Assembly (NCBI RefSeq): GCF_014195535.1
Contig: NZ_JACIBY010000025.1
Coordinates: forward strand, 1 to 64,000
DNA from: Runella defluvii
GTDB lineage: Bacteria > Bacteroidota > Bacteroidia > Cytophagales > Spirosomataceae
Length of the DNA: 64,000 nt
Reading direction: 5' to 3'
Part shown: one piece after another, positions 5,903-25,953 of the stretch
Numbering within the stretch: the first letter of the stretch is position 1
Layout of the letters: the number at the start of each line of letters is the position of its first letter
Program-made: the position numbers and the translations under genes
The notes under the pieces: generated by a model
Databases searched by the model: none
The model's input: the letters and a program-made list of their open reading frames with translations, nothing else
What the model was told of the DNA's origin: nothing

Positions 5903-5933
5903 GCGTAATTTTTATTTCATCTATTTCTGTATA

Positions 5934-5948
5934 TAAAATACCTTGCCA
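5934..5948 (-). promoter_or_regulatory. Candidate sigma-54 promoter of PadR unit 1
   Basis: Read on the minus strand, TGGCAA-GGTAT-TTTA has the -24 element spaced as in the sigma-54 consensus TGGCAC-N5-TTGC, but the -12 half is weak. It ends 31 bases before the PadR start codon. The palindrome pair at 6001-6038 lies 52 bases further upstream, the same distance as in the divergent promoter region at 25.8 kb, which is the main reason to believe it. Confidence 0.5.
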
Positions 5949-6000: not shown

Positions 6001-6038
6001 TGTCCAAAAACGGACAGTTTCCAGTACGTCAACGGACA
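6001..6038. promoter_or_regulatory. Tandem palindrome, probable enhancer for the sigma-54 regulator (site A)
   Basis: Two 16-base sites begin 22 bases apart: TGTCCA-AAAA-CGGACA (6001-6016, one mismatch from perfect) and AGTACG-TCAA-CGGACA (6023-6038, conserved right half). The same paired arrangement occurs at 12056-12092 and 25794-25830. The third copy lies upstream of the response regulator's own gene, so the likely binding protein is that NtrC-class regulator. Confidence 0.7.
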
Positions 6039-6249
6039 GTCTGTTTACCGTTTGGGGTTTACTGTTTGAGGTTTAGGGTTTAGTTTTTTGGGCTTATACT
6101 TTGCTTTTTGCCCTTTGCAAACTTGCCCTTTGGAGTTTTGCCTTTTTCGGTTCATGCTTTGCTTTCTACAAATTTGCCACTTGCAAACTTGCCCACTTTT
6201 TCGCCCTTTGCGGTTTAAAATTTTACATTTTTCGGTTCATTCTTTTGCC

Positions 6250-8649
6250 CTACTCCGTCTTCAACGCCTCAACGGGATCGGCCAAAGCGGCTTTGGCACT
6301 ACGGAAACTGAGGGTAAGAAACGCAATTAGCACCGTCAAGAGTCCTGCCAAGGTCGGGATAAGCCAGTTCACTTCGATGCGATAGGCAAAATCGGCCAAC
6401 CACTCATTCATTAAGTACCAAGCCGCAGGCGTAGCCAGTACAATAGCGACCAAAATGGGTTTTAAAAAGTCGATGGAAAGGAGCTGTACAATGCTTGCGA
6501 CCGAAGCTCCGAGCACCTTCCGAACGCCAATTTCTTTGGTGCGCCGAGCCACGACCAACAAAACGAGGCCGTACAATCCCAAACATCCGATGAGAATGGC
6601 AACGACCGAAAAAACACTCGCCAACCGAACCGTCAATTGTTCGGTTTCGTAAAATTTTGCCAATTGTTCATCAAGGTATTCGTAGCTAAACACCTCATTT
6701 GGATAGATTTTTTGCCACGTTTGCCGAACGTGATTAAGGGTTTTGGAGGGAGAAGCTGCCGCAACCCGTACGCCTACTTTTCGATAACGGGCAGTTTGGG
6801 TGGAAATCACACAAGGTTCAATCTGTTCGCGTAATGAGCGTAAATGAAAATCTTTGACCACTCCCACCACGGGCGCAGCGACGGGCGACAAGTACGTTTC
6901 TATTTTATGGCCTAGTATGTCGTTGGGGTCTTTGATGTTTAGTTTTTTGAGCAACGCCTCGTTGACCACATATTCCCGAATGGTATCCGACGGCGCGACG
7001 TTCCTTCCTGCTACCAATTGCAGCCCGTAGGTTTTGAGGTAATCGGCATCCCCCAATCGTTCTCGTATCGGAAAAGCTTCCCATTGAGCACGGTTGTCAA
7101 ATTTGAACGAGCCACCGTTCATGACCGAAGCCGACGGTGGACGATACGCCGCACTTACCGACTGTATTTCGGGGTATTGAAGCAAGGAATTTTTAAACGC
7201 CGTGAGGGCTGTTGGGGAAGGGTCAGGTAGGTTGACGACCAATACGTTGTCTTTTTTAAAACCCAAATCCGATTGCTCCACGTACTTCATTTGCCTCGTC
7301 ACGACCATTGTACCAATAAGTAAAGCTTGACAAATGGCAAATTGCACCACAATCATCGACTGCCGCAGGGACAAACCTCCCTTTTTCGGCAGAACTCCTT
7401 TCCCTTTTAACGCCTGCCAGGGGCTAAAGCCCGACATCATAAACGCAGGATACCCACCCGCCAATCCAATGATACCAACCAAAAGTACCGTCAGTAATAG
7501 CGTCGCTTGGGCATTGAGGGTAAAAGTCAAATTCAATCCTAACCATTGATTAACAAAAGGTAAAATTAACACGACTAAAAGCCCAGCCCCAATCGCCGCC
7601 GTCGTCACAATCAGCGCGGTTTCTAGCAAAAATTGGCGCATTACTTGCCATTTGCTACTTCCCAACGTTTTGCGGATGCCAATTTCTTTGGCCCGACTCA
7701 ACGACTGCGCCGTGGCTAAGTTGATAAAATTGAGGCAGGCAATTAGAATCAAAAACGCGCCAATCCACCCCAGCGACCACAACAACGAGCGCTGAATCAA
7801 TGCCCCACCCGTTCGTTTTACATCGAAATGCACCTCCGACAACGGTTGAATGTGAAACTGGAAAACCGAGGCATCTTTGCCATAGTGTTTTTGAGCAAGC
7901 GCAGGAAAGGCCGCTGCCACCTGAGCCGCTGAGCTTGGGTTTTTGAGCGTAAGATAAACGCGGTCAGTAGAGTTGAGTGCCCACCAATCGTTCAGGTTTT
8001 GGTCGGGAAGTAGATGCGAGAACGTGCCCATCGAAATAAACAACTGCACATCGTTATTGGTCGTACGTGGAGGGTCGGCTAAAACGCCAGTCACTTTTAC
8101 TTTGGTCAAGTGATTCAAATCCAACACTTTACCGATGGGGTCTTCGTTACCAAAGTATTTTTTTGCCCAAGTTTCGGTAAGTACTACGGTATTGGGTTCT
8201 CGAAGAGATGTCTTAGGGTTTCCTTTAAGCCACTGATAATCAAAAACATCAAACCATTCTGATTCAATCAAAGCACCCGTATTTTGTTCTAAAAAACGTT
8301 GAGAACTCCCGTTTTTAGAGCTGGGAAAGCTCACAGTCAGCTCACGCAATGTTTTCAGCGAAGTCGCTTGCTCTACTTGCGAAAACTCGTCGCGAAGCAC
8401 CTTGGCCATGGGGAGAGGAGCCTCGGGGTAGGTTTCTACGGAGCCATCTTCTAAATGCAAATCTACCACAATCCGAAAAATGCGGTCGAATTTTTGATGG
8501 TGACGGTCGGTACTGAGGTGATACGAAATGAAAAGAAAAATCAGGATTCCCCCCGCCATTCCGACGGTGAGTCCCAAGACGTTAAGCGTAGTGTACGTCC
8601 GATAATGGCGGAGGTTACGCAGAGCGATGGTGAGGTAATTTTTGAGCAT
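6250..8649 (-). CDS. MacB/FtsX-type ABC permease without prefix (unit 2, last gene)
   Basis: A 799-residue permease that starts directly at MLKNYLTIALRNL, the point where the prefix ends in its longer paralogues. The first membrane segment is at about 21-43, followed by the periplasmic domain, then ACLNFINLATAQSLSRAKEIGIRKTLG near residues 305-330 and the second FtsX trio with RRTKEIGVRKVLGASVASIVQLLS near the C-terminus. It ends in DPVEALKTE. It lies 152 bases after the 884-residue permease, with an inverted-repeat element between them (8732-8794), so co-transcription is likely but expression may be uneven. A strong terminator follows it. The substrate is unknown. Confidence 0.92.
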   Translation of the reverse strand: MLKNYLTIALRNLRHYRTYTTLNVLGLTVGMAGGILIFLFISYHLSTDRHHQKFDRIFRIVVDLHLEDGSVETYPEAPLPMAKVLRDEFSQVEQATSLKTLRELTVSFPSSKNGSSQRFLEQNTGALIESEWFDVFDYQWLKGNPKTSLREPNTVVLTETWAKKYFGNEDPIGKVLDLNHLTKVKVTGVLADPPRTTNNDVQLFISMGTFSHLLPDQNLNDWWALNSTDRVYLTLKNPSSAAQVAAAFPALAQKHYGKDASVFQFHIQPLSEVHFDVKRTGGALIQRSLLWSLGWIGAFLILIACLNFINLATAQSLSRAKEIGIRKTLGSSKWQVMRQFLLETALIVTTAAIGAGLLVVLILPFVNQWLGLNLTFTLNAQATLLLTVLLVGIIGLAGGYPAFMMSGFSPWQALKGKGVLPKKGGLSLRQSMIVVQFAICQALLIGTMVVTRQMKYVEQSDLGFKKDNVLVVNLPDPSPTALTAFKNSLLQYPEIQSVSAAYRPPSASVMNGGSFKFDNRAQWEAFPIRERLGDADYLKTYGLQLVAGRNVAPSDTIREYVVNEALLKKLNIKDPNDILGHKIETYLSPVAAPVVGVVKDFHLRSLREQIEPCVISTQTARYRKVGVRVAAASPSKTLNHVRQTWQKIYPNEVFSYEYLDEQLAKFYETEQLTVRLASVFSVVAILIGCLGLYGLVLLVVARRTKEIGVRKVLGASVASIVQLLSIDFLKPILVAIVLATPAAWYLMNEWLADFAYRIEVNWLIPTLAGLLTVLIAFLTLSFRSAKAALADPVEALKTE

Positions 8650-8731
8650 AAAATAGCAGTGGCGTTATTTTATCTCGAAATTACTCAGAACCTTCTACAG
8701 ACGACCGTTAAAAAATGTTAAGTGTTTTTGT

Positions 8732-8794
8732 AAGTCCTTCCAAGTTTTGAAAACGGGGACGCCCAGTCGGGGACGCCCAGTCTTGGAAGGACTT
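8732..8794. repeat. Inverted repeat element with a duplicated loop
   Basis: A perfect 13-base inverted repeat (AAGTCCTTCCAAG at 8732-8744, complement at 8782-8794) encloses two exact tandem copies of GGGGACGCCCAGTC (8755-8768, 8769-8782). It could act as a leaky terminator after the permease that ends at 8802. The stem resembles the CTCCAAGTTTTTGAAACTTGGAG stem of the terminator at 41291, so it may belong to a dispersed hairpin family. Confidence 0.7.
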
Positions 8795-8801
8795 GTCTCC
8801 C

Positions 8802-11456
8802 CTACTCTGCTTTCAGCGACTTGACAGGATTGCCCAAGGCCGCTTTGATGGATTGAAAACTGACGGTGAAAAAGGCGATTAGAATCGACAATGCCGCCGC
8901 AATCACAAACGTCCAAACGCTGATGTCGATGCGGTATGGATAATTTTCGAGCCACTCTTTGATGGCGTAATAGGCCACAGGAAAGGCAAAAACAAACGAC
9001 AAACTGACCAGTTTTAGAAAATCTGCCGAAAGTAGCGTCGTGATACTTGCTACTGACGCGCCCAATACTTTGCGGATACCGATTTCTTTGGTGCGTCGCT
9101 CGGCCGAAAGGGTAGCCAAACCGAAAAGACCAATGCACGAGATAAAAATCGTCAAAATCGCGCCAAAGAGCATGATTTGTTTCCATTTGGCTTCTGATTC
9201 GTAGCGTTTTTCGTTTTCTTCATCCATAAATTTGTACTCGTACGGATTCGTTGGGAAGAGTTTTTTGTACGTTTTGGCAAGATGGCTTAGGCTCGCCGTT
9301 TCGCTTCCTTCTTTGATTTTGATGAACACTTTTCCGTACTGATTCCCTGGCTTCATCGTAAACAGCTGTGGACTTATTTTGGCGTTAAGTGACTCAAAGT
9401 GAAAGTCTTTCACCACACCAACTACTTTGTATTTTTCGCCTTCATTGTACCAAAAATCTACCACTTGCCCCAACGGGTTTGTCCAACCTGCTTTTTTCAC
9501 AAAAGTCTCATTGACCAATATCGACGAAGTAGAATCTGAATTAAACTCCGCCGAAAAATTACGCCCTTTGATAATCGGGATTTGTAACAACGGAAAGTAG
9601 GTGGCATCGACCGTTTCATAGGCAAAATTTATTTCGGTTTGGCCGTTTACTTTGGCAACTGTGTACCAGTTTCCGCCGTTTTTAGGGGCTACGTCTCGTA
9701 TATTTTGGTTTTTCAGTAATTCATCTTTAAAAACCTTCGCTTCATTCCGACTCAAACCCGACTTGTTCACCATCACAATGCCTTTGTCGTTGTAGCCTAA
9801 ATCTTTGTTAGTCAAATAGTTGAATTGAGAATAAATAGTAAGCGTTGCAATGATTAAAAACGAAGCCAACGCAAATTGCAACACCACCAAGCCTTTTTGA
9901 AGGTAGTTTTTGCCCGAAAGGTTGAATCGGCTGTAAAGCGTTTGAACAGGGTTATAATTGGATAATACCAACGCAGGATAAAAGCCCGCCAAAAGGCCCG
10001 TAGCAGCAAACAAAGCGAAATACCCTGCAATCAACTTAGCATCAAACAAATACGAAAATGCCAGTGCTTTATTGGAAAGCTCATTGAAGGTTGGTAACAC
10101 CATTTGTACCAACAATAGCGCAAATCCAAAGGCCAAAAAGCACAGAATAAACGACTCACCCAAAAACTGCATCATCAACTGCGCACGGCCTCCACCCACA
10201 ACCTTGCGTACCCCAATTTCTTTAGCCCGTTTGAGCGAGCGCGCCACTGTCAGGTTCACGAAGTTGATGCACGCAATGAGTAAAATAAACAACGCAATGC
10301 CCGAAAGGATGTACGAAAACATCGGATTGCTGCCGTCCACCAAGCCGTTTTGGGCAGGCATATCTTTATTAAGGTGCATATCCGTAAAAGGCTGCAACAT
10401 ATATTTCATTTTACTCTGAGGACCAAACCGCTTTACTTCTTCTTCCATCGCTTGTTTGGCATCCTTTTCAAAAATGCGGTTCATGGTGGCCTCTACTTTT
10501 TTGAGGTTGGCATTAGGCTCAAGCACGACAAACGTATTTTGGAAAAAATTAAACCAATTACCTTCATTGGCCATGTCTTCTTTGCTTACCACATAGGGAA
10601 AAAGAAAATCAAACTTGATTGAAGAATTTTGGGGGCATTTTTTAGCAATTCCCGTCACGGTATAGGGTTCAAACTCTTTTGAATCTCCGTTAGAATTTCG
10701 CACCAAGAGGATTTTTCCTAAAGCGTTGGTGGTTCCAAACTGCTTTTCGGCCATTTCTTCTGAAAGCACTACAGATTTGGGTTCTCTTAACGCCGTAGCA
10801 GGATTTCCGCTGACAAGCGGGAACGAAAACAACGCGAAGAAACTGCTATCGGCATGAAATGATTCAAAACTTTTGACTTCTGTTCCCACTTTGATATCAC
10901 TTCGATCGCTTTGGTAACGCACCGACATTTTGATTTCGGGAACACCCGCCGCAAATTTAGGTCCTTGCAAATACCCCGTATGGGTGTTGTACGATTGAAA
11001 AGCCCCCGCAGGTGTAAACTGTTTGCTCGTAATGCGGTAGATGTGGGGGTTGTTGGCGTGAAATCGATCAAAACTTACTTCGTCTTTGGTATAAAGCATG
11101 ATTAACATGGCCGCCGCCAAGCCAATACTTAGCCCAATGACGTTGATGGACGAATACACCTTGTTGTGCGCCAAGGTACGAAAGGCGATGGTAAAGTAAT
11201 TGCGTAACATAGATGGCTGAATTAAAAAAGGGTTATGGTAAGCTTGTTTTCTTTCACGACGACGGACAAAAGGAGGCAATACCGATGCGACATTGAGCAA
11301 ATAACGCCACGTAGCTTGGCCTTTGCCTGCACGCTCGTACCAGTAGGCGTATAGTTCCTCCAAATCCCCTTCCACTTCTTCGAGGGTATCTTCGGGATGC
11401 AACCACCTCAAGACGCGGTTGGCCCACTGAGGCGGATGAAGTTCGTTGGTTTTCAT
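8802..11456 (-). CDS. MacB/FtsX-type ABC permease with prefix domain (unit 2, first permease)
   Basis: An 884-residue permease. The prefix, residues 1-85 (PPQWANRVLRWLHPEDTLEEVEGDLEELY), is the most diverged of the five and is acidic in its second helix. The core starts at SMLRNYFTIAFRTL. The membrane segment after it is followed by the first periplasmic domain, the motif ACINFVNLTVARSLKRAKEIGVRK and the final trio with ERRTKEIGIRKVLGASV. The start codon overlaps the stop of the PadR gene by 4 bases (ATGA), so translation of the two is coupled. It ends with NPVKSLKAE. There is no nucleotide-binding domain. Confidence 0.93.
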   Translation of the reverse strand: MKTNELHPPQWANRVLRWLHPEDTLEEVEGDLEELYAYWYERAGKGQATWRYLLNVASVLPPFVRRRERKQAYHNPFLIQPSMLRNYFTIAFRTLAHNKVYSSINVIGLSIGLAAAMLIMLYTKDEVSFDRFHANNPHIYRITSKQFTPAGAFQSYNTHTGYLQGPKFAAGVPEIKMSVRYQSDRSDIKVGTEVKSFESFHADSSFFALFSFPLVSGNPATALREPKSVVLSEEMAEKQFGTTNALGKILLVRNSNGDSKEFEPYTVTGIAKKCPQNSSIKFDFLFPYVVSKEDMANEGNWFNFFQNTFVVLEPNANLKKVEATMNRIFEKDAKQAMEEEVKRFGPQSKMKYMLQPFTDMHLNKDMPAQNGLVDGSNPMFSYILSGIALFILLIACINFVNLTVARSLKRAKEIGVRKVVGGGRAQLMMQFLGESFILCFLAFGFALLLVQMVLPTFNELSNKALAFSYLFDAKLIAGYFALFAATGLLAGFYPALVLSNYNPVQTLYSRFNLSGKNYLQKGLVVLQFALASFLIIATLTIYSQFNYLTNKDLGYNDKGIVMVNKSGLSRNEAKVFKDELLKNQNIRDVAPKNGGNWYTVAKVNGQTEINFAYETVDATYFPLLQIPIIKGRNFSAEFNSDSTSSILVNETFVKKAGWTNPLGQVVDFWYNEGEKYKVVGVVKDFHFESLNAKISPQLFTMKPGNQYGKVFIKIKEGSETASLSHLAKTYKKLFPTNPYEYKFMDEENEKRYESEAKWKQIMLFGAILTIFISCIGLFGLATLSAERRTKEIGIRKVLGASVASITTLLSADFLKLVSLSFVFAFPVAYYAIKEWLENYPYRIDISVWTFVIAAALSILIAFFTVSFQSIKAALGNPVKSLKAE

Positions 11457-11791
11457 AGGCTGTTCAATTGCAATTTAGTCGGTGGTAGGAGTTGCCAAAG
11501 TTGTTGGCGCAGTTGTTGGATTTCCTGCAACGCACGATTTCCCAGCGCCGTTACGTGAAAAAGGCGCTTGCGCCGCCCACCGCGTTCGTTCGTCGCACCA
11601 CCGAGTTCGGAACCGACAAAGCCCTTTTCTTCCAGTCGAATGAGCGTATTGTGCACCGTTCCAAAGGTCACCACCCGCCCCGTGTGCTCTTCCAACGCCT
11701 GACTGACCGTGACGCCATACGCCTCTCCATCGAGAATGGCTACCATCAGCAAAACGACTTCCTCAAATTCGCCTAAATAGGTTCGACGCAT
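11453..11791 (-). CDS. PadR family transcriptional regulator (unit 2)
   Basis: 112 residues from the ATG at 11789-11791. A longer frame reaching 11890 is open, but its extra 33 residues run into the promoter and a repeat and do not match the other two PadR proteins, which begin at the same MRR/MKR point. Motifs are LGEFEEVVLLMVAIL, TVHNTLIRLEEKGFVGS (recognition helix) and ERGGRRKRLFHVTALG (wing). Its stop codon overlaps the permease start. A TGGCAC element sits about 40 bases upstream, and the palindrome pair is unusually far away because repeat DNA lies between them. It probably represses its own operon. Confidence 0.92.
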   Translation of the reverse strand: MRRTYLGEFEEVVLLMVAILDGEAYGVTVSQALEEHTGRVVTFGTVHNTLIRLEEKGFVGSELGGATNERGGRRKRLFHVTALGNRALQEIQQLRQQLWQLLPPTKLQLNSL

Positions 11792-11820
11792 GGGTATTAT
11801 GATTAGTTTATATTTTATCG

Positions 11821-11835
11821 TACAAATCCGTGCCA
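11821..11835 (-). promoter_or_regulatory. Candidate sigma-54 promoter of PadR unit 2
   Basis: Minus strand TGGCAC-GGATT-TGTA has a perfect -24 half and a poor -12 half. It ends 29 bases before the PadR start, similar to unit 1. The matching palindrome pair is 220 bases upstream rather than 52-54. Confidence 0.5.
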
Positions 11836-11848
11836 GAAAATAAAAAGG

Positions 11849-12026
11849 AACTGTTTCAAAAGTCTCATAGTACCAAATTATCTTTTGCACCTATTCAACC
11901 TCTCCCCCTAAATCCCCCTCTCCTTTCAGTAGAGGGGGACTTTTTAAGCCCTTCTCCAGAAAGGAGAAGGGTTGGGATGAGGTTAAAAACAAAGGAAATT
12001 TGGCAATAAAGGCTTTTGAAACAGCT
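11849..12026. repeat. Inverted-repeat-bounded intergenic element (MITE-like), nested
   Basis: A perfect 12-base inverted repeat (CTGTTTCAAAAG at 11851-11862, complement at 12013-12024), imperfectly extended by A/T-rich flanks, bounds about 178 bases with no ORF. Inside, 11897-11984 is a second palindromic unit running from AACCTCTCCCC to GGGATGAGGTT. It contains the hairpin CCCTTCTCC / GGAGAAGGG (11949-11971) and a stem around AGAGGGGG. Short units like the inner one are common between genes in Bacteroidota. The element sits between an enhancer and its promoter. Confidence 0.7.
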
Positions 12027-12055
12027 TCTTTTTTAAAACCTTAGAAATTAAAACG

Positions 12056-12092
12056 TGTCCGCAAACGGACAACCGTTGTCCTGCGGTGGACA
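12056..12092. promoter_or_regulatory. Tandem palindrome, probable enhancer (site B)
   Basis: TGTCCG-CAAA-CGGACA (12056-12071, perfect) and TGTCCT-GCGG-TGGACA (12077-12092) begin exactly 21 bases apart, two helical turns, so both sites face the same side of the DNA. The site lies just beyond the stop codon of the permease at 12099 and upstream of PadR unit 2. Confidence 0.78.
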
Positions 12093-12098
12093 ATCAAT

Positions 12099-14477: not shown

Positions 14478-14490
14478 ATTGGGGTTGTTT

Positions 14491-17127: not shown

Positions 17128-17158
17128 AGAATGATTGTATTGTAAAATGGGATGGAAT

Positions 17159-17188
17159 TGTAGAGACGTTGTATACAACGTCTCTACA
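17159..17188. repeat. 30-base perfect palindrome
   Basis: The sequence TGTAGAGACGTTGTA followed by its exact reverse complement spans 17159-17188. It lies in the 66-base gap between two co-oriented permease genes, 5 bases after the stop codon of the upstream one. It may form a hairpin that tunes the downstream gene. I recall similar palindromes as dispersed repeats in other bacteria, but cannot check that here. Confidence 0.8.
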
Positions 17189-17193
17189 GGGGA

Positions 17194-19860
17194 TTATTCC
17201 GATTTCAACGTCGTCACAGGATTGACCAAAGCAGCCTTTAGGGTCTGATAGCTGACTGTAAACATAGAAATAGCTACAATCGCGATGCCCGCAACGGCAA
17301 AACTCTCCCAACCCACCTCGGTGCGATACACAAAACCTTCGAGCCATTTATTCATCGCATAATACGACAGCGGAGAGGCGATGAGGAGCGCAATCAAAAC
17401 GGGTTTTAGAAACTCTTTGGAAAGCAACGTCGTGATACTGACCACACTGGCCCCTAGCACTTTCCGAACGCCGATTTCTTTGGTACGCTGCTCGGCGGTA
17501 AACATGGCCAGCCCAAACAACCCCAAACAACTGAGAAGAATGGCAATCAGCGTAAACGAATTGATAATTTTACGGAGCGTTTTTTCTTCTGAATACTGCT
17601 TTTGAAGGTCTTCGTCCAAAAACGAATATTGCAACGGTACAGTCGGGATGAGTTTTTTCCAGATTTTTTCCACGTTGGCAAACAGGCTTTCATAATTCTC
17701 GGCTTGCACGTCGAGAACCATGTACTCAGGTTGCGAACTGTAATGCGTCATCACGGGTGTCATTTCGTCCTTGAGCGAATTGTTGATGTACGTTTTATGT
17801 ACCCCAATGACGTTGTAGGCTTCGATATTATCTCCCGTCCCCGTGAACACCTGCGTACCCACGGCCGTCTCCACCGTCAAATTCAAGTCTTTTACACTTT
17901 TCTCGCTCAAAATCACTTGGTTATTGGTATCAGCTGGCGTGAAGTTTCGGCCTGCAATGAGCTTGATGCCAAGGGTTTTGAAAAAGCCTTCGTCAACGAC
18001 GTTGTTTTTGATTAAAACGCCTTTGTCCATGGTTCCCCCCGACTTGAAGACTAGCATGTCCTGCAAAAACTGCTGCGAAGGATAATACCGTACTCCTCCA
18101 ATATTTTTAATCTGATGTTGGGTCAATAATTCGTTTTTCAGCGCCGTGAAGTGCTTTTGAGCATTTTCGTTGGACAACGACACCACGACTTTTTGTTTTT
18201 TGTCAAAACCCAAATCTTTGTTTTGCATAAAATCCAATTGCTTCGAAATCACCAACACTCCGATAATGAGCACAATGGCAATCGAGAACTGAAAAACAAC
18301 CAAGCCTTTGCGAAGAACCACCGAAGCGGGATTGAATTTAAACGTTCCTTTCAACACACTTACGGGTTTGAAACTTGATAAATAAATGGCAGGATAAATG
18401 CCCGCCAACAAGCCCGTCGCCAACGCTACCAGCACCGTTATGAATAAAATATCAAGGTTTTGGGTAATAGTAAGCGCTAACGTACTGTCAGTAAGCGAGT
18501 TTAGAAATGGCAAAAGGAGCTTAACAATCGGCAAAGCCAAGAAAATAGAGATAAAAGCAATCAGCATCGACTCACCCAAAAACTGCCCAATCAACACCGA
18601 CCTAAAGGCTCCAACGGCTTTTCTAACGCCCACTTCTTTGGCGCGGCGCACCGAGCGGGCCGTGGTTAGGTTGACAAAATTGATGCAAGCAATCAGTTGA
18701 ATAAAAGCCGCGATGGTCAATAAAATGTACAAAAACGAAATATCAGACACTTTATCCGTTTGGTTCGTTATGCCTTTTGAATACAGGTGAATATCCGTTA
18801 CTTTTTGCAGCAAAACCGTTTTTTTCATCCCCAACTCCGCAATTCTTTTTCCACCATAACGCTGCAAAAGCGCAGGCATTTTGGCGTTTACACTTTCGGG
18901 ATTGACGTTGGGTTTGAGCTTTACGTACGAATAAATAAAGTTATTGCCGCCCCATTCGGTGTTATTTCGGGCAAACTCCCCAAGCCCACCGCTGTTTAGG
19001 CTGACCAAAAAGCTGGGTCGAAGGTGCGATTTGCCAAAACTATCGTCATATACCCCCGTCACGGTGAGGGTAGTGGTATTGAGATTGTTCCCAACTTTGA
19101 TGCGTTTGTTGATGGCTTTTTCTTGGCCAAAAAGCTTTTCAGCAATCGTCTTTGAAAGCACCACGGTATAGGGTGCATCCAACGAGTGTTCTGGCGCCCC
19201 TTCTACAAATTGGTAAGTGAAGACGTTGAAAAACGTTGAATCCACCAAAAAGCCTTTGTCGTCAATGAATGTTTCGGTTTTTCCTTCTACCCCCAAAAGG
19301 TTATTTTTTGCGGTAAAGAAATTGAGCACCCGCGTATATTCCACCACTTCGGGAAAGTCCTTTTTCATGGTAGGCGCGATGATGGGCGAACTCGTGCCGC
19401 TGTTGAACATGGGCTGATCGCCACCGTTGTGTAAAATGTTTGTTTGGAGTCGGTAAATGTTCTCGGCGTCTTTGTGGTAGTTGTCGTAGCCAAATTGGTC
19501 TTTGACGTACAACAAAATATACAAACAGCACACCGTCCCGACGGTTAGGCCGAGAATATTGAGCGAGCTGAACATCTTGTGGCGAACAAGATTCCGAAAA
19601 GCGATTTTGAGATAATTGATTAACATGGTTGGGCTGTATAAAAAAGTGGTTGAAAACTCGGTTTTTTTACGTTTGAGGGCAAAAGGGCGAATAAAACTCA
19701 GGACATTCCATACATACTGACGGCGCGCGATTTTCGCCCCAAACAGGGCTAGTTGTCGCTGATAACGCTCATGTAAGTCACCTTGCACTTCTTCCAAAAG
19801 GTCAGGCGCACAAAAGAATTCGAGCAGGCGTTCGGCCCAGCGGGGTGGATTTGTATTCAT
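17194..19860 (-). CDS. MacB/FtsX-type ABC permease with prefix domain (unit 3, first permease)
   Basis: 888 residues from the ATG at 19858-19860 (MNTNPPRWAERLLEFF); a 12-residue upstream extension is unlikely. The prefix covers residues 4-75 (APDLLEEVQGDLHERYQRQ). The core starts at SPTMLINYLKIAFRNL, with the first membrane segment near 95-115. The middle FtsX block is ACINFVNLTTARSVRRAKEVGVRKAVGAFR and the last is EQRTKEIGVRKVLGASVVSITTLLS. It ends with NPVTTLKSE. It lies 78 bases after the PadR gene, and the gap holds a GCAAACTTGCC-type inverted repeat. It is the first permease of the unit, as in the other PadR units. Confidence 0.93.
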   Translation of the reverse strand: MNTNPPRWAERLLEFFCAPDLLEEVQGDLHERYQRQLALFGAKIARRQYVWNVLSFIRPFALKRKKTEFSTTFLYSPTMLINYLKIAFRNLVRHKMFSSLNILGLTVGTVCCLYILLYVKDQFGYDNYHKDAENIYRLQTNILHNGGDQPMFNSGTSSPIIAPTMKKDFPEVVEYTRVLNFFTAKNNLLGVEGKTETFIDDKGFLVDSTFFNVFTYQFVEGAPEHSLDAPYTVVLSKTIAEKLFGQEKAINKRIKVGNNLNTTTLTVTGVYDDSFGKSHLRPSFLVSLNSGGLGEFARNNTEWGGNNFIYSYVKLKPNVNPESVNAKMPALLQRYGGKRIAELGMKKTVLLQKVTDIHLYSKGITNQTDKVSDISFLYILLTIAAFIQLIACINFVNLTTARSVRRAKEVGVRKAVGAFRSVLIGQFLGESMLIAFISIFLALPIVKLLLPFLNSLTDSTLALTITQNLDILFITVLVALATGLLAGIYPAIYLSSFKPVSVLKGTFKFNPASVVLRKGLVVFQFSIAIVLIIGVLVISKQLDFMQNKDLGFDKKQKVVVSLSNENAQKHFTALKNELLTQHQIKNIGGVRYYPSQQFLQDMLVFKSGGTMDKGVLIKNNVVDEGFFKTLGIKLIAGRNFTPADTNNQVILSEKSVKDLNLTVETAVGTQVFTGTGDNIEAYNVIGVHKTYINNSLKDEMTPVMTHYSSQPEYMVLDVQAENYESLFANVEKIWKKLIPTVPLQYSFLDEDLQKQYSEEKTLRKIINSFTLIAILLSCLGLFGLAMFTAEQRTKEIGVRKVLGASVVSITTLLSKEFLKPVLIALLIASPLSYYAMNKWLEGFVYRTEVGWESFAVAGIAIVAISMFTVSYQTLKAALVNPVTTLKSE

Positions 19861-19885
19861 GGTCAATTTTTTAAAAAGCAAGTAG

Positions 19886-19937
19886 GCAAGGGGCAAGTTT
19901 GCGAGTTTGCCTCTTGCAGATTTGCAAACTTGCCTGC
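19886..19937. repeat. Short inverted repeat related to the TTGCAAACTTGCC motif
   Basis: AGGCAAGGGGCAAGTTTGC is mirrored by GCAAACTTGCCTGCC (19924-19938) between PadR and permease of unit 3. The core TTGCAAACTTGCC (19922-19934) also occurs twice at 6115 and 6181, next to PadR unit 1. Confidence 0.5.
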
Positions 19938-19938
19938 C

Positions 19939-20283
19939 TCATATCGCCATTCCAAAAGTTGGCAATGATTGAGGTGCAATCGAATCCCACAAACGATTTC
20001 GTTGTTCGCGCACTTCCTGTAAGGTTTTACTCCCCAGCACAGTCACACTAAACAGGCGCTTACGGCGCCCGCCACGTTCGGCAGTTGCATCCCCCATTTT
20101 CGACGATAGCATTCCTTTTTCTTCAAGCCGATGCAAGGCCGCATGTACCGCGCTAATGCTCACATTTCGTCCCGTTTGTCGGTCTAGCTCGTCGGTGATT
20201 GCTATCCCGTAGGCTCCTTCACCGAGAATAGCCACGGTCAAGAGTACCACTTCTTCAAACTCGCCTAAGTACGTTCGTTTCAT
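19939..20283 (-). CDS. PadR family transcriptional regulator (unit 3)
   Basis: 114 residues with the same architecture as the other two: LGEFEEVVLLTVAIL, AVHAALHRLEEKGMLSS (recognition helix) and AERGGRRKRLFSVTVLG (wing). The C-terminal tail (LPTFGMAI) is specific to this copy. Unlike the other two units, the 118 bases upstream carry neither a TGTCC/GGACA palindrome nor a TGGCA element, so this unit probably uses a housekeeping promoter or is controlled indirectly. A terminator for the preceding operon lies between them. Confidence 0.92.
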   Translation of the reverse strand: MKRTYLGEFEEVVLLTVAILGEGAYGIAITDELDRQTGRNVSISAVHAALHRLEEKGMLSSKMGDATAERGGRRKRLFSVTVLGSKTLQEVREQRNRLWDSIAPQSLPTFGMAI

Positions 20284-20350
20284 AGTTGACTATCGTTATT
20301 TCAAAAGGAGGTGGCGTATTACTTCAACTTTTGTAGAATTAATACTTCTA

Positions 20351-20385
20351 AAAAAGGCTCAACCTCAAAACCAAGGTTGAACCTT
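20351..20385 (-). terminator. Terminator of the adaptor-ATPase-permease operon
   Basis: A 12-base stem (AAGGCTCAACCT at 20354-20365 against AGGTTGAACCTT at 20374-20385, one G-T pair) is followed on the minus strand by a T run. It lies 17 bases after the stop of the proline-linker protein and shields PadR unit 3 from read-through. Confidence 0.8.
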
Positions 20386-20401
20386 CTTCAAACACCCGAG
20401 G

Positions 20402-20992
20402 CTATTTTTTTAAGCCCAATTCTTGTTCTATTTTTTCAATGATGTTTTTGCGTTCTTTTTCCGATTTATCAGCGGCATTGATTGTCCGTTCGTAAATCAC
20501 CTCTTCACCGTCTTTATTAAAACGGTAACGCATAAAAAGCTCGCCCGTTTCCGAGTTATATTTTACCTCTTTTTCAAACCCATCTTTCAACGGTTTGGGC
20601 GTAGTGTGACCACTGCGTTCATACCCATCCGAATACGTTACCCCTGGAAACGGTGCAGGCGGCGTTGGGGGAGTAGGAGGTGTTGGCGGAGTAGGAGGCG
20701 TAGGAGGAGTAGGAGGAGTAGGCGGTGTGGGGGGCGTTGGCGGTACCGGAGGCGTCGGGGATTGAATTCCCAATGAATCCAGCACATGATTGCGCAATTC
20801 TTTTCGTTCGGTTTTGCTCAAATGCGCCACGTCGAAGGTGCGGTCATACTGAATCGCCCGCCCGTCAATCGTTCCTTTGACCCGTATTGACATCGTTTGG
20901 CCATTGTCGTCAATACTGCTACTGATAGAGCGGTGTTGAGCTACGGCCATTGAACTCACAAATAATAAACCAACGATTGATAAGGTTTTCAT
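20402..20992 (-). CDS. Secreted two-domain protein with a (TPP)n linker
   Basis: 196 residues of unknown function. Residues 1-18 are a signal peptide (MKTLSIVGLLFVSSMAVA, cleavage before QH). Residues 43-76 (YDRTFDVAHLSKTERKELRN) and 161-194 (YERTINAADKSEKERKN) look like two copies of one small motif: a strand with Y-x-R-T, then a charged amphipathic helix ending in (S/E)LG(I/L). Between them, residues 79-116 are PT/PP repeats with about ten TPP units, probably a rigid polyproline spacer. The gene starts 12 bases after the permease at 21005 and precedes the operon terminator, so it is probably exported to the periplasm or beyond as part of the adaptor-ATPase-permease system. An accessory or sensor role is inference. 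Confidence 0.85.
   Translation of the reverse strand: MKTLSIVGLLFVSSMAVAQHRSISSSIDDNGQTMSIRVKGTIDGRAIQYDRTFDVAHLSKTERKELRNHVLDSLGIQSPTPPVPPTPPTPPTPPTPPTPPTPPTPPTPPTPPAPFPGVTYSDGYERSGHTTPKPLKDGFEKEVKYNSETGELFMRYRFNKDGEEVIYERTINAADKSEKERKNIIEKIEQELGLKK
20656..20760. repeat. 9-base in-frame tandem repeat coding for TPP units
   Basis: The segment is built from degenerate copies of a 9-base unit (GGAGTAGGA, GGCGTTGGG on the plus strand) giving Thr-Pro-Pro on the coding strand. Copies differ at third positions, so the array is not freshly expanded, but its length could vary by slippage without a frame change. Confidence 0.85.
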
Positions 20993-21004
20993 AGCAGGAA
21001 AGGG

Positions 21005-23362
21005 TTAATCGGTTTTCAATGATTTTACAGGATTCATCAACGCGGCACGAATGGCCTGAGAACTCACGGTTAGCAGGGCGATAAAAACCGCCACAATGGC
21101 CGCCAACGCAAAATACCACCACTCGATTTCGATGCGATAGGCGTATTTTTCGAGCCAGCCTTTTAAGAAATACCACGCAATAGGAAAGGCAATGAACGTA
21201 GCCACCAATACCAATTTGATAAACTCCGCCGACAGCATACCTACCAAGTTGGTCACGCTGGCTCCGAGCACTTTTCGCACGCCAATTTCTTTGGTTCGTT
21301 GTTCGGCAGTAAAAGCGGCCAGCCCAAACAACCCTAAACACGAAATAAAAATGGCCAAAAAGGCAAAGAAATTCGACAATTGATTGACCACCTCTTCGCT
21401 TTTGTATTGTTTGGCGTATTCTTGGTCGGTAAACGAATATTTGAACGGGAAACTCGGATTAAACTTCTTGAATGTTTTTTCAAGGTTCGCCAATGCCTCC
21501 TTGGTTTTGCCAGCATCTGCCCTCACAATCACTACCCCCCAATTTTCGGTTTTGGGTTGTAAGCGTAAAATCAGGGGTTCGATGGTTGAGTGCAACGAGT
21601 TGTAGTGAAAATCTTTCATCAGGCCCACGATGGTTCCCTTGCGTCCCCACATAGTCATTTCTTTACCAACGGGGTCTTTATATCCCATTTTTTTGGCACT
21701 TGCTTCGTTGATGATGTAGTTGGTCGTATCCATGCCGTATTGCTCACCAAAATCACGCCCGCCCACCAGCTTAATGCCCATGGTTTGGATATAATCGTAC
21801 GAAATGGCATTTTGGGCAAACAACAATAACTGAGTCGTGTCTTTGCCTGGCCACGTAACGCCTTGGGTAGAAGAGCCGACTTCCAACGGATTGGACTGCG
21901 AAAGCGTGACGTGCTTTATGCCCGTCTGCCTTTGAAGTTCTTGTTTGAACGAAGAGAAATTTGTTTGTAAATCCCCTTCCAACGGCATATATACCAAGTT
22001 TTCGCGGTCGTATCCCGAATTTTTGGTTTGCAGATAATCCAGTTGTTCGTGCACAATCACCATGCCCACAATGAGCATAATCGACAACGCAAACTGAAAT
22101 ACCACCAAGCCCTTACGGAAATAAGTAGCGCTCGGTTTAAACTTCAACGAACCTTTGAGCACTACTACAGGGTTGAGCGACGACATAAAAAGCGCAGGGT
22201 AACTACCCGCTACTAAGCCCGTGAACACCGTCAAACCCAGCAAAGTGGCTAAAATGCGCGGGTCGGTAAAGTTGAGCGTCAGTTCTTTTTCGGTCAGAAG
22301 ATTAAACGTTGGCAATAACAAAAAGACCAACACAATCGAAATCAGCAACGACAACGACGTAATCAGGATGGCTTCTCCCATAAACTGCCCCACCAAAACA
22401 CCCTTGACAGCCCCAATTACTTTCCGAACGCCTACTTCTTTGGCCCGTTTGACGGAGCGTGCCGTTGCCAAATTCATAAAATTGATGCAGGCAATGAGCA
22501 AAATAACGATGGCTACAATTGAGAAAATACGCACGTATTCGATGCGCCCACCGTCTTGCTTTCCCGAATCCCATTTTGAATATAAGTACGATTCTGGAAA
22601 AGACTGCAAGAACAATTCTACGTTGCTGTCTTTGTTTTTGGTTTTGATGTAGCCTTTAATTTTGGCGTTTACTTTCTCCAAAGAAGCGTTTTTGGCCAAC
22701 AACACATAACAGCGTGGCCCATTGTTCCCCCACTCTTTCGACCACGCGTTGGTTTTTTGCCAACGATCGTAGCTCATCAAAAAATCAAACTGTATCGAGT
22801 TATTTTTGGGAAGTTCTTTGAGCACTCCCGTTACCATCACCGCATCTTTGTTGTCCACCTTGATGATTTTGCCGATGGGGTCTTGGTTGGGAAAATACTT
22901 TTGGGCTAACTTTTTTGAAATCACCACGCCATCAGGACGTTTGAGGGCTGTTTTGGCGTCGCCTTTTTCCAATGGGAAACTAAACAAACGCAAAAAATCG
23001 CCTTGCACATAACGCCCTTTTTCTTTGTCAAAGGTATTTCCTACGGTAAAGAGCGGCTGTTCTTCCCACAAAAACTGGCTTGCCATTTCTATTTCGGGGA
23101 TGTCTTTGGTGATGTTTTCAGCCAAAATCCCTGGCGTGGACGCGTACGTTTCAATTTTTCCAGAATAGTACTGATTTTCCATCACCCGATAAAGGCGAGC
23201 GCCGTTGGCGTGAAAACCATCCATGTTTATTTCGTCTTGCACCCAAAGCATAATCATCAGGCTGCAAGCCATACCAAGGGCCAACCCCATGATATTAATA
23301 AACGAATAAACCTTGTTTTTGAGCAGATTGCGGAATGCAATCGTGAAGTAACTTCGTATCAT
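21005..23362 (-). CDS. MacB/FtsX-type ABC permease without prefix, in the ATPase operon
   Basis: 785 residues from the ATG at 23360-23362 (MIRSYFTIAFRNLLKNK), the position where all prefix-free copies begin; the 11-residue upstream extension is spurious. The first membrane segment is at about 20-42. The middle FtsX block ACINFMNLATARSVKRAKEVGVRKVIGA and last block EQRTKEIGVRKVLGASVTNLVGMLS are intact, and it ends with NPVKSLKTD. It lies 92 bases after the ATPase. As the only permease in the same operon as an ATPase and adaptor, it is the best candidate for the core MacB-like subunit with which the orphan paralogues may exchange. Confidence 0.93.
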   Translation of the reverse strand: MIRSYFTIAFRNLLKNKVYSFINIMGLALGMACSLMIMLWVQDEINMDGFHANGARLYRVMENQYYSGKIETYASTPGILAENITKDIPEIEMASQFLWEEQPLFTVGNTFDKEKGRYVQGDFLRLFSFPLEKGDAKTALKRPDGVVISKKLAQKYFPNQDPIGKIIKVDNKDAVMVTGVLKELPKNNSIQFDFLMSYDRWQKTNAWSKEWGNNGPRCYVLLAKNASLEKVNAKIKGYIKTKNKDSNVELFLQSFPESYLYSKWDSGKQDGGRIEYVRIFSIVAIVILLIACINFMNLATARSVKRAKEVGVRKVIGAVKGVLVGQFMGEAILITSLSLLISIVLVFLLLPTFNLLTEKELTLNFTDPRILATLLGLTVFTGLVAGSYPALFMSSLNPVVVLKGSLKFKPSATYFRKGLVVFQFALSIMLIVGMVIVHEQLDYLQTKNSGYDRENLVYMPLEGDLQTNFSSFKQELQRQTGIKHVTLSQSNPLEVGSSTQGVTWPGKDTTQLLLFAQNAISYDYIQTMGIKLVGGRDFGEQYGMDTTNYIINEASAKKMGYKDPVGKEMTMWGRKGTIVGLMKDFHYNSLHSTIEPLILRLQPKTENWGVVIVRADAGKTKEALANLEKTFKKFNPSFPFKYSFTDQEYAKQYKSEEVVNQLSNFFAFLAIFISCLGLFGLAAFTAEQRTKEIGVRKVLGASVTNLVGMLSAEFIKLVLVATFIAFPIAWYFLKGWLEKYAYRIEIEWWYFALAAIVAVFIALLTVSSQAIRAALMNPVKSLKTD

Positions 23363-23454
23363 AGCTGTATGGGTAAAAGGCAATAGAAAGGGCAAAGAAT
23401 TGTAGAAACTCAGTGCCCTTTACGTAAAAAATAGAATGGGATAGGAATACGTGA

Positions 23455-24132
23455 TTAAACGCGCATTTTCTCGGTAACTACCTTACCATCAAACAAATTA
23501 ACGATACGGTGTGCAAATCCAGCATCGTACGGAGAGTGCGTTACCATGACGATACTCGTTCCTTCGTCGTTGAGTTGGATGAGGAGTTTCATTACCTCTT
23601 CGCCGTTAGCAGAGTCGAGGTTACCCGTAGGCTCATCGGCCAAAATTAGTTTGGGTTTGGCAACGACCGCCCGCGCAATCGCCGTACGCTGTTGTTGCCC
23701 CCCCGATAGTTGTTGAGGGAAGTGATTGCGACGGTGCATGATGTTCATGCGGGTCAATACGGTTTCGACCATCTCTTTGCGTTCGTTGGCAGGTACTTTT
23801 AAGTAAAGCAACGGAAGCTCAACGTTTTCATACACCGTAAGTTCGTCGATAAGGTTAAAGCTTTGGAACACAAATCCGATGTTTCCTTTGCGTAGTTGTG
23901 CCCGTTGGCGCTCCGACAACGTAGCTACTTCGGTTCCGTGGAAGTCATAGCTCCCTCCCGAAGGATTGTCGAGCAAGCCCACTATATTTAGTAATGTAGA
24001 TTTTCCACAGCCTGATGGCCCCATGATGGCCACAAACTCGCCATCTTTTACTTCCAAGTCTATTCCGTTCAGGGCTGTAGTTTCAACTTCTTCAGTTGAG
24101 AAGATTTTTTGAAGGTTGGTTATTTTGATCAT
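23455..24132 (-). CDS. MacB/LolD-type ABC transporter ATPase
   Basis: 225 residues from the ATG at 24130-24132 (MIKITNLQKIF); a 7-residue longer frame runs into a repeat. All motifs are present: Walker A GPSGCGKST (38-46), Q-loop QSFNL, signature LSGGQ (142-146), Walker B LILADEP (162-168), D-loop GNLDSANGEE and switch histidine VTHS. Length and the GEEVMKLL segment fit the MacB/LolD/FtsE class that powers FtsX-type permeases. It is the only ATPase in a locus of eight such permeases. The adaptor gene is 128 bases upstream, beyond a palindromic repeat. It acts at the cytoplasmic face of the inner membrane. Confidence 0.97.
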   Translation of the reverse strand: MIKITNLQKIFSTEEVETTALNGIDLEVKDGEFVAIMGPSGCGKSTLLNIVGLLDNPSGGSYDFHGTEVATLSERQRAQLRKGNIGFVFQSFNLIDELTVYENVELPLLYLKVPANERKEMVETVLTRMNIMHRRNHFPQQLSGGQQQRTAIARAVVAKPKLILADEPTGNLDSANGEEVMKLLIQLNDEGTSIVMVTHSPYDAGFAHRIVNLFDGKVVTEKMRV

Positions 24133-24134
24133 GT

Positions 24135-24257
24135 CAAGCCCCCTAACCCCCAATGGGGGAACGCCAGGGTCAGCGGTTTTGTGTGTTTATGTTTTTTTTG
24201 AAATAATTGGCTGCTTAAGCCCCCATCGGACGGTACGCCAGCGAGGTTTGGGGCTTG
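24135..24257. repeat. Palindromic intergenic repeat between adaptor and ATPase genes
   Basis: Ends CAAGCCCC (24135-24142) and GGGGCTTG (24250-24257) are exact inverted repeats. The interior has CCCCCAATGGGGG and a second AAGCCCC, plus two ACGCCAG segments. There is no ORF. It fills the whole gap in an operon and could fold in the transcript. Confidence 0.65.
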
Positions 24258-24260
24258 TTA

Positions 24261-25568
24261 TTACTTCATTTCTAATACTTCCTTATCACCAAAGTTAGCA
24301 TACGAGCTGGTGATTACTTTCTCGCCTGGCTGTAAACCTTCGAGTACTTCGTAGAACTCTGGGTTTTTGCGACCAAGGGTGATGTTGCGTTTGCTTGCAC
24401 GCTTGCCGCTGTTGTCTAAAACATACACCCAGTTTCCACCTGTATCGGAGAAGAACCCACCGACTGGTAACAACATCGCTTTTTCGGCCTTACCCAAGTC
24501 CAAACGAATCGGGGTCGATTGCCCACGTTTGATGCCTTCTGGTGCTCCTTTTGGGAAACTCATATCTACTTCAAAACGGCCATTGCGTACTTCTGGATAA
24601 ATGCGCGTGATTTGGAGGTTATGCTCTTTACCGTTGAAATCAAAATGTCCCATTAACCCCACAAAAATCCGTGAAATATAGTGTTCGTCAATCGCTACGC
24701 GCATTTTAAAACCGTCCAAGTCATCAATTTGGCCAATGTTTTGTCCTTGGCTAATGTTGGATCCTACTTCCACATCAATCGACGACAACATCCCGCTTAC
24801 GGGCGCTTTTACCACCAAGTTGTCGAGGGTCTGACGCCACAGCTCTACGTTTTTCTGCGTGCGCACTAAGGTTCCCTCCAACTGCGTAATCTGCATTTTG
24901 GCGTTTTCTTCTTGGTAGTTTTGCGACTCCGTTTCAATGTCACGTTGCTTTACCAACAATTCATAATCGCGTTTCGACTTCAAAAAGTCAGATTCGGGAA
25001 TGACCTTGTCTTTGAACAACTTTTGGTTACGGTCATAAATATCTTTGGCTTGGTCAATTTTGAAATCGAGTTCATTGAGCGTACGACGCATGTTGAATCG
25101 GTTGACGCGCAACTGTTGACGCGTATTCTGAAGGTCGTTGACCAATCGGCTCGCTTCGGTTTCCGATTGCAAGAAGTTCAACTTCAAGTTTTGGTTTTCA
25201 AGGCGCAAAAGCACTTGGCCTTGGCTTACCATACTACCACCTTCTACTATTTTTTCTTTCACGTATCCGCCCACAATCGCGTCAAGGCGAATCGTTTTGA
25301 GCGGCTGAATTACCCCCGTCACCACAATAAACTCATCGAACGAACCCGTTGAAACGCTTGATACCGTCAGTTTATCGGCTTCTACGTTGAGTTTTGAACG
25401 TTTATCTGAAAAGAATACTTGGTATCCGATGAAGGCGATGATGGCGCCGCCGCCTACCACCAAAATGATACGCTGTGTATTCCAAAATTTCTTTTTCCGA
25501 ACGCGATCCATTGATCCTTGTGTACTGTTGTTTGAAGTTTGGTTGCTAAGTGGATGTTTGACTTCCAT
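24261..25568 (-). CDS. HlyD/MacA-type periplasmic adaptor
   Basis: 435 residues. A cytoplasmic N-terminus is followed by one membrane anchor (about 33-53) after the basic RKKKFWNTQR. Then comes a lipoyl-like half (VGGYVKEKIVEGGSMVSQGQ), a long coiled-coil hairpin (about 125-250), the second lipoyl half (APVSGMLSSIDVEVGSNI) and beta-barrel/membrane-proximal domains (VLDNSGKRASKRNITLGRKN). This is the MacA-like fusion protein layout that links an inner-membrane MacB pump to a TolC channel. No TolC is in the operon; a TolC-family gene lies at 58278. It is first in its operon, behind a sigma-54-like promoter that leaves a 5' leader of about 145 bases. Confidence 0.95.
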   Translation of the reverse strand: MEVKHPLSNQTSNNSTQGSMDRVRKKKFWNTQRIILVVGGGAIIAFIGYQVFFSDKRSKLNVEADKLTVSSVSTGSFDEFIVVTGVIQPLKTIRLDAIVGGYVKEKIVEGGSMVSQGQVLLRLENQNLKLNFLQSETEASRLVNDLQNTRQQLRVNRFNMRRTLNELDFKIDQAKDIYDRNQKLFKDKVIPESDFLKSKRDYELLVKQRDIETESQNYQEENAKMQITQLEGTLVRTQKNVELWRQTLDNLVVKAPVSGMLSSIDVEVGSNISQGQNIGQIDDLDGFKMRVAIDEHYISRIFVGLMGHFDFNGKEHNLQITRIYPEVRNGRFEVDMSFPKGAPEGIKRGQSTPIRLDLGKAEKAMLLPVGGFFSDTGGNWVYVLDNSGKRASKRNITLGRKNPEFYEVLEGLQPGEKVITSSYANFGDKEVLEMK

Positions 25569-25724
25569 GGGTGCATTTGTTAATTCTGATGAATTTAAAA
25601 ATTTTTAAAACAATGATGGCTGTTAAAAACAACGCCTTGTCTGGCTCACGGTTCTCTAACCTAAACTAAAATCCTTCAATTGTATGTGTTCTTATGGCTG
25701 TATGAGTACTGTACCTCTCTTTAT

Positions 25725-25739
25725 CCAATACCCGTGCCA
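25725..25739 (-). promoter_or_regulatory. Sigma-54 promoter of the adaptor-ATPase-permease operon
   Basis: Minus strand TGGCAC-GGGTA-TTGG matches TGGCAC-N5-TTGC except for the last base. It faces the adaptor gene, whose start is 157 bases downstream. The nearest edge of the palindrome pair is 54 bases upstream. Confidence 0.75.
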
Positions 25740-25793
25740 GAACCATAAGTAGTTGAATTTTAGACAATTATTCAAAAATACCATTTCTAATTT

Positions 25794-25830
25794 TGTCCGT
25801 TTTCGGACAAGCATTGTACGGCGGTGGACA
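25794..25830. promoter_or_regulatory. Tandem palindrome, probable shared enhancer (site C)
   Basis: TGTCCG-TTTT-CGGACA (25794-25809, perfect) and TGTACG-GCGG-TGGACA (25815-25830) start 21 bases apart, with the same layout as 12056-12092. The pair lies at equal distance (53-54 bases) from the two divergent TGGCAC elements, as expected for one enhancer serving both promoters. Confidence 0.8.
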
Positions 25831-25883: not shown

Positions 25884-25898
25884 TGGCACTCTTATTGG
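25884..25898 (+). promoter_or_regulatory. Sigma-54 promoter of the two-component operon
   Basis: TGGCAC-TCTTA-TTGG on the plus strand has the same form, including the TTGG variant, as the divergent promoter. It ends 55 bases before the response regulator start codon. This implies that the regulator activates its own operon. Confidence 0.75.
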
Positions 25899-25953
25899 GT
25901 AAACTCCGTTAGAGTTTAAAATCCTCTGTAAACAACAATCGTATAAATAGCCC

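Follow-up and report, generated by a model that had tools for sequence, protein, structure and literature searches.

In a window of 64,000 nucleotides from Runella defluvii (positions 1 to 64,000 of contig NZ_JACIBY010000025.1, RefSeq assembly GCF_014195535.1), paired palindromes lie upstream of genes for FtsX-type export permeases and of a response regulator gene at 25954. Data from this and related genomes suggest, with a probability of about 0.83, that these pairs are the activator sequences of an NtrC-type sigma-54 regulon over an exporter array, run by the 25954 regulator. As proposed here, the regulon would contain some 30 large FtsX/MacB-type permeases, two ATP-binding cassette (ABC) ATPases, an HlyD adaptor and a TolC-type protein; it is a large regulon of an already known kind and extends well beyond the window. 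The pairs, their geometry, their conservation and their co-occurrence with the regulator are established at the level of sequence, and from these we infer binding of the pair by this protein. A first-pass annotation of the same DNA had proposed such a regulon, which is supported by the domains of the regulator, by its presence, which tracks the pair across 59 genomes, and by a set of sites far larger than the three then known.

All three window pairs were found where that annotation had placed them, with site starts 22 (6001/6023), 21 (12056/12077) and 21 (25794/25815) nt apart. Its motif, TGTCCG-N4-CGGACA, is exact at two of the six sites (12056 and 25794) and mismatched at the other four, once at 6001 and twice each at 6023, 12077 and 25815; the core common to the six is better written TGTNC-N6-GNACA. 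In the whole genome of 7.99 Mb the exact motif occurs at two places only, both inside the window. In the window, single sites with up to three mismatches are no commoner than chance predicts (24 found, 20.0 expected); the signal rests only on the pair, on the whole genome and on the promoter distance. The loops of the two sites vary while spacing and promoter distance are kept, and the two sites within a pair are spaced by 20-22 bp throughout, as tandem dyads in helical phase to the promoter.

Below, G000 denotes the genome studied, C numbers its contigs (the window is C25), and G and L numbers the compared genomes and loci. In the whole genome, the 21-spaced pair with up to two mismatches occurs at 12 places and its reversed pattern at 2; for the 22-spaced pair the corresponding counts are 3 and 0. 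Pairs spaced by 20 were sought in the retrieved stretches of C10, C25 and C6, where direct scanning added two. The three copies originally reported were thus too low a count, as 14 pairs were finally accepted genome-wide (Table 1), among them the two-mismatch matches C10:15375 and C10:130951, both of which precede exporter operons. When the genome was scanned for pairs standing away from TGGCAC elements, as the annotation had suggested, all 14 counted pairs had TGGCA or TGGTA downstream. In G010, a close relative, 12 pairs and the regulator share one contig (5.610-5.766 Mb); C10 and C25 therefore probably adjoin each other in a single locus of roughly 155 kb, which would hold 12 of the 14 pairs.

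Six further matches were set aside. C4:585284 (two mismatches, spacing 22) was dropped as doubtful; it has TGGCA at 64 bp, but another 300 bp or so separate this from the start of the next gene, which encodes a small secreted-looking protein. Five were dropped by eye as chance-like, namely C1:86310 and C11:234185 with two mismatches and C2:185140, C11:4899 and C14:58894 with three; a check made afterwards placed all five inside open frames of 83-533 codons, with TGGCA within the promoter windows for the C14 match alone, where it lies inside that same frame.

The 14 pairs of G000 correspond to 15 promoters, the 25794 pair serving two. The -24 word is TGGCA in 14 of these and TGGTA in one, and since TGG[CT]A, present in 15/15, was the search criterion itself, position relative to the pair is the test that counts. 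The element lies at 52-54 bp from the pair in nine promoters, at 41 bp in two, at 63-66 bp in three and at 220 bp in one, so that the offsets 41, 52-54 and 63-66 are steps of roughly one DNA turn. The TGGCA elements reported for the window were confirmed, with 25884(+) and 25739(-) standing on either side of the 25794 pair, 5948(-) serving the 6001 pair and 11835(-) the 12056 pair. These promoters carry the standard -24 GG but not the standard -12 GC element: the -12 end usually reads TTG or TTT, with G at the standard position in 9/15 and T in 6/15. As the spacing is standard, we regard the -12 element as degenerate rather than absent.

For comparison among genomes, a model, R1, was built from the 14 pairs of G000 alone, with no promoter sequence included. 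Stretches of 18 genomes (nine Runella, own included, and nine other-family genomes, chosen for holding the array or R1 matches) contain 173 pairs, overlapping registers being counted apart, versus 5 for the reversed control. Consensus calling gave 123 promoters located 25-80 bp from a pair. Of these, 112 fall at 40-42, 51-55 or 62-66 bp, three windows that cover 13 of the 56 positions, and some of the 11 outside them arise because the same sites were read in a second register. At the -12 position these 112 promoters read G in 84 and T in 28, in a set where T/T and G-or-T entered the selection score and C did not. Orthologous promoters, as compared in sequence, differ by about one helical turn: the PadR2 spacer is 53 bp in G009 and 64 bp in G005, G008, G011 and G012, that of the PadR gene before C10:38085 is 53-54 bp in four genomes and 63 bp in two, and that of PadR1 is 52 bp in two and 63 bp in one. 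For synthetic sigma-54 enhancers, PMC4740811 gives a periodicity of about 10.5-11 bp. In a joined stretch of G008 (L198-L204; about 66156-66213, within L201), two pair registers with offsets 62 and 41 overlap and amount to three tandem sites before one PadR promoter.

Exporter operons follow 13 of the 14 pairs. Seven pairs precede a PadR gene followed by one to three FtsX permeases, four precede runs of FtsX genes only (up to nine genes), one an ABC ATPase with a TolC-type protein, and one lies between the divergent HlyD-ABC-FtsX and regulator-kinase operons. All three window pairs do face genes of the exporter locus, as had been noted, with the correction that two of them face PadR-FtsX operons. 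The remaining pair, C8:235978, has its -24 element at 54 bp and precedes an outer-membrane barrel gene (OMP_b-brl_3), another kind of member. By similarity to the window permeases, 36 large FtsX genes were found in the retrieved parts of C10, C25 and C6, and at least 29 of them lie downstream of a pair when operons are read by eye. ABC ATPases in these stretches are those at 23455, its close relative C10:131094 and a distant match at C10:136448 (36 bits), and most FtsX permeases are encoded without an ATPase in their own operon. We tentatively consider, with rather less than even odds, that one sigma-54 switch drives a one-to-many exporter, in which dozens of FtsX permeases would share the few ABC ATPases, the HlyD and the TolC of the regulon, and private PadR proteins would choose among permeases.

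The regulator has a receiver domain (PF00072), a Sigma54_activat AAA+ domain (PF00158) and a Fis-type helix-turn-helix (PF02954), all above cut-off. Its Walker A motif is GENGTGKS and its GAFTGA contact loop reads GAFTDA. Across 44 loci read, some genomes being included twice, the loop is GAFTDA in 38, GSFTDA in two, GAYTDA in three (the two Runella genomes G005 and G008, and L045) and belongs to a distant protein in one (L147); PMC4641369 lists GAFTDA and GAYTDA among the loop forms expected to remain active. The regulator shares 98% identity with its counterpart in Runella limosa DSM 17973. In the partner histidine kinase, whose gene overlaps the end of the regulator gene, Pfam finds ATPase-type domains only, and there is one clear N-terminal hydrophobic segment; a second failed the hydropathy cut, and hence an intramembrane-sensing kinase is not claimed. 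G000 encodes three RpoN proteins with Sigma54_DBD and the RpoN box (C1:1121093, C13:206857 and C8:223462).

R1 matches were found in 36 of 59 genomes, including all 13 of the genus, under stringent filters that lost some weak matches. Loci were obtained for 17 of the 23 R1-matching genomes outside the genus, and TGG[CT]A stands at 41, 52-54 or 63-66 bp in 14 of these 17, versus 0.68 expected from dinucleotide shuffles; R1 was blind to these loci, but the offset windows were written after the loci had been viewed. At the exact offsets of G000 the count is 12/17 versus 0.61 expected, and an earlier run with slightly wider windows likewise gave 14/17, versus 0.88. A relative of FtsX, PadR, ABC, TolC or outer-membrane proteins is encoded in 15 of 16 non-genus loci (L127 left out), the one without being L119.

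The pair also accompanies the regulator gene itself: of 29 regulator loci that could be read, that of G000 among them, 24 have it upstream of this gene (L042, the thirtieth, is incomplete and was left out). In 12 of the 13 pair-bearing loci from outside Runella, a -24 element faces the divergent genes at 53-55 or 65 bp; at these distances none of the loci has one facing the regulator. Within Runella, the element toward the regulator is present at 53 bp in 11/11 readable loci, own included, and that toward the divergent operon at 54 bp in 7/11. From this difference in orientation, it is probable that the divergent operon was targeted first and that autoregulation arose later, in Runella. The first-pass annotation had placed a pair and a -24 element before the regulator; both are indeed present upstream of 25954, though the regulator's own -24 element is seen in Runella only.

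Presence of the regulator and of the pair go together: of the 40 genomes that have the regulator 34 match R1, and of the 19 that lack it 2 do (Fisher p 5e-8), the counts within the family being 29/31 versus 2/6 (p 0.003), these p-values being uncorrected for kinship and the presence cut-off (E <= 1e-120) having been set after the matches were seen. The two genomes classed as lacking the regulator yet matching R1 are G007 and G013. G013 has a partial regulator match (4.7e-106, 53% identical over residues 144-457), and counting it as regulator-present gives 35/41 versus 1/18. G007 is a Runella without the regulator, the best relative of which is 42% identical, and it has 2 MacB_PCD matches at E <= 1e-20 versus 8-32 in other Runella. 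An earlier idea that G007 had chance-like pairs only was overturned by one strong R1 match, at L109 (G007:C66:15041-18075), where the pair is kept and the -24 reads TGTCAC. In comparison with G003, the ABC gene is gone from L109 and the TolC-type gene remains only in short pieces, which makes this place a likely relic of a lost regulon.

In our model, the 25954 regulator would be phosphorylated by the neighbouring kinase. Each pair would act as an upstream activator sequence, with two adjacent dimer sites two helical turns apart, on which the phosphorylated regulator would bind and oligomerise. The oligomer would then contact sigma-54 RNA polymerase bound at a -24 promoter of the TGGCA type, some 41, 53 or 65 bp downstream, presumably by looping and on a preferred face of the DNA, and the PadR genes that head half of the pair-bearing operons would probably encode private repressors under the common switch.

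Several observations weigh against this model. No pair was found in front of the PadR3 operon, and no permease follows the C8:235978 pair, which precedes an outer-membrane barrel protein. The -12 position is followed by C in 2/15 promoters of G000 and 26/112 overall, and the insert-bearing spacers described below (205-220 bp) are without clear helical phase. Three of the 17 non-genus loci miss the -24 element, L111 having TGGTT at 53, L123 TGGCG at 63 and L117 nothing; the pair has no place beside the regulator in 5/29 readable loci, and the divergent -24 element is absent at the expected distance in 4/11 Runella loci. Six genomes (G031, G033, G037, G045, G047 and G055) have the regulator without an R1 match, and the p-values above overstate the association because the genomes share ancestry. 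Moreover, covariation between protein and site is weak. When the recognition helix, LSRQALYRR (Q-type) or LSRAALYRR (A-type), was compared with the fourth base of the half-site, T was found in 22/64 half-sites of A-type genomes, 7/68 of non-Runella Q-type genomes and 8/96 of Runella (A-type versus non-Runella Q-type, Fisher p 0.001); as the genomes are related, this is a hint only.

The pair might instead be bound by another sigma-54 enhancer-binding protein, for instance the 44%-identical paralogue C5:90069 beside MacB genes, with the 25954 regulator merely one of the targets. The genome does encode further enhancer-binding proteins, including this second strong match. However, G004, G006, G018, G019, G020 and G025 each have a single regulator match at the cut-off and no second of the 44% type, yet hold 2-10 R1 matches each (both strands of a place being counted), and the pair persists upstream of regulators of the 25954 type (24/29) but has nearly vanished from regulator-less G007, so that we regard this alternative as unlikely.

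A role of the palindromes as operators of PadR repressors, which head many of the operons, would agree with 7/14 pairs of G000 lying directly before a PadR gene, and PadR operators are palindromes of similar size, ATGT-N8-ACAT. But the other seven pairs precede operons without PadR (FtsX arrays, ABC-TolC, HlyD/regulator, outer-membrane protein) and PadR3 has none, so the sites are neither regularly present before PadR operons nor absent elsewhere. The half-sites are TGT-N10-ACA instead of the N8 form, and the sites keep a considerable distance upstream of the promoter and favour certain helical phases, a placing that a repressor would not need; operators of this kind are very improbable here. 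Least credible of all are RNA hairpins (terminators) or a dispersed repeat of the repetitive extragenic palindrome (REP) type at the ends of permease operons. The 12056 pair does end 7 bp past a permease stop codon, and the 6001 pair about 210 bp past one, but the 25794 pair lies between two divergent genes, where neither transcript should end, site loops vary while spacing and promoter distance hold, and the 14 pairs are not scattered, 12 of them being in one gene array.

The model of a looping activator meets natural variants at three promoters. Due to an insert resembling a miniature inverted-repeat transposable element (MITE) in the spacer, the 11835 element lies 220 bp from its pair; the ends of this insert are 24-nt imperfect terminal inverted repeats, 88% complementary, and the corresponding spacer is 53-64 bp in the five genomes G005, G008, G009, G011 and G012. 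Within the array stretches, to which the search was confined, relatives of the insert occur in the spacers of PadR1 (G003, G005), PadR2 (G003, G010) and the PadR gene at C10:18736 (G005, G008, G010), and further copies lie outside those spacers in G003 and G008, with a 40-bp piece in G010. The inserts shift the enhancer from about 41-64 to 205-220 bp, while the pair and the -24 element stay, and these promoters thus offer natural tests of enhancer looping.

Table 1. Coordinates of features in the window and of all counted pairs
Feature	Position	Strand	Remark
Paired palindrome	6001..6038		sites 6001-6016 and 6023-6038, spacing 22
Paired palindrome	12056..12092		sites 12056-12071 and 12077-12092, spacing 21
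Paired palindrome	25794..25830		sites 25794-25809 and 25815-25830, spacing 21; lies between the divergent genes for regulator and HlyD, faces both directions
-24-like element TGGCAAGGTATTTTAT	5933..5948	-	faces PadR1; 52 bp from 6001 pair
-24-like element TGGCACGGATTTGTAC	11820..11835	-	faces PadR2; 220 bp from 12056 pair
-24/-12-like element TGGCACGGGTATTGGA	25724..25739	-	faces HlyD-ABC-FtsX; 54 bp from 25794 pair
-24/-12-like element TGGCACTCTTATTGGG	25884..25899	+	faces response regulator gene; 53 bp from 25794 pair
MITE-like insert	11842..12033		between 12056 pair and its promoter
NtrC-type response regulator, proposed binder of pair	25954..27330	+	Pfam and sequence
Partner histidine kinase	27327..28655	+	overlaps end of regulator gene; HATPase_c
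HlyD-type adaptor, first gene of divergent exporter operon	24261..25568	-	Pfam
ABC ATPase	23455..24153	-	Pfam
FtsX/MacB_PCD permease of HlyD operon	21005..23395	-	Pfam
PadR1 regulator gene	5567..5902	-	then two FtsX permeases, 2935-5562 and 247-2931
PadR2 regulator gene	11453..11791	-	then two FtsX permeases, 8802-11456 and 6250-8649
PadR3	19939..20283	-	three FtsX permeases, 17194-19896, 14491-17178 and 12099-14477
Counted pairs (14), C25	6001, 12056, 25794
Counted pairs (14), C10	15375, 18654, 28229, 37939, 46294, 69345, 81459, 95908, 130951
Counted pairs (14), C6 and C8	C6: 502761; C8: 235978

Two-component sigma-54 regulons of the NtrC family are known from the NtrC, ZraR and DctD type. 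The present set resembles them in its receiver-AAA+-Fis helix-turn-helix regulator beside a kinase, in tandem dyads upstream of -24 promoters and in helical phasing, and differs in its occurrence in Bacteroidota, its very many FtsX permease targets, its -12 end of mostly TTG or TTT without C and its GAFTDA loop. In NifA proteins, a GAF domain comes first. The 25954 regulator has a receiver domain in its place, and identification as NifA was rejected. Tandem activator sites and helical phasing are known in sigma-54 systems (PMC4740811). The NifA sequence is TGT-N10-ACA (PMC2820453), and the pair sites are like NifA sites in half-site words and in 16-bp geometry; unlike NifA, however, the 25954 regulator carries a receiver domain and is paired with a kinase, and its targets would be exporters.

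A computational promoter scan of 2025 predicted that FtsX-like permeases (COG0577) are under sigma-54 control in several classes, Bacteroidia among them, and terms this the first evidence of the sort (PMC12316311). Its prediction concerns the same promoter class before the same permease family as here; in its statements on the FtsX genes the activator, the enhancer motif and the helical geometry are unnamed, and these we propose for Spirosomataceae and some relatives. In the open-licence PMC literature we found no description of this regulon and no account of the control of the giant FtsX permease arrays of Spirosomataceae. In detoxification modules of the BceRS-BceAB type, FtsX-type permeases are linked to a kinase in which no outer sensor domain is recognised. 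The present kinase is similar in both respects, whereas its regulator is a sigma-54 activator and the output would be a whole array; that a permease does the sensing here is speculation. Sigma-54 control in Bacteroidota is little explored, and the set supplies a specific enhancer code, names a regulator and its proposed targets, and offers natural variants (spacers changed by one turn, MITE insertions and the G007 relic), so that the regulon and the helical-phase rule are directly testable at the bench.

Some further features of these loci may be recorded. The start of PadR2 is placed at 11791 because an ATG lies 264 bp past the pair and the counterpart in G010 has 112 aa. Between the HlyD-ABC-FtsX operon and PadR3, at 20402-20992, lies a protein gene that includes a repetitive DNA tract of the GGAGTAGG type (about 20660-20750); the protein has no Pfam match. 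At L089/L090 (G010:C1:5734858-5740869) there is an FtsX-similar open frame of 2003 aa, versus a permease of 895 aa in G000, and it is possible that this frame is a fusion. At C5:87471-91490, the second NtrC-type regulator (44% identical) stands beside two MacB_PCD genes of roughly 420 aa and is possibly a parallel exporter switch.

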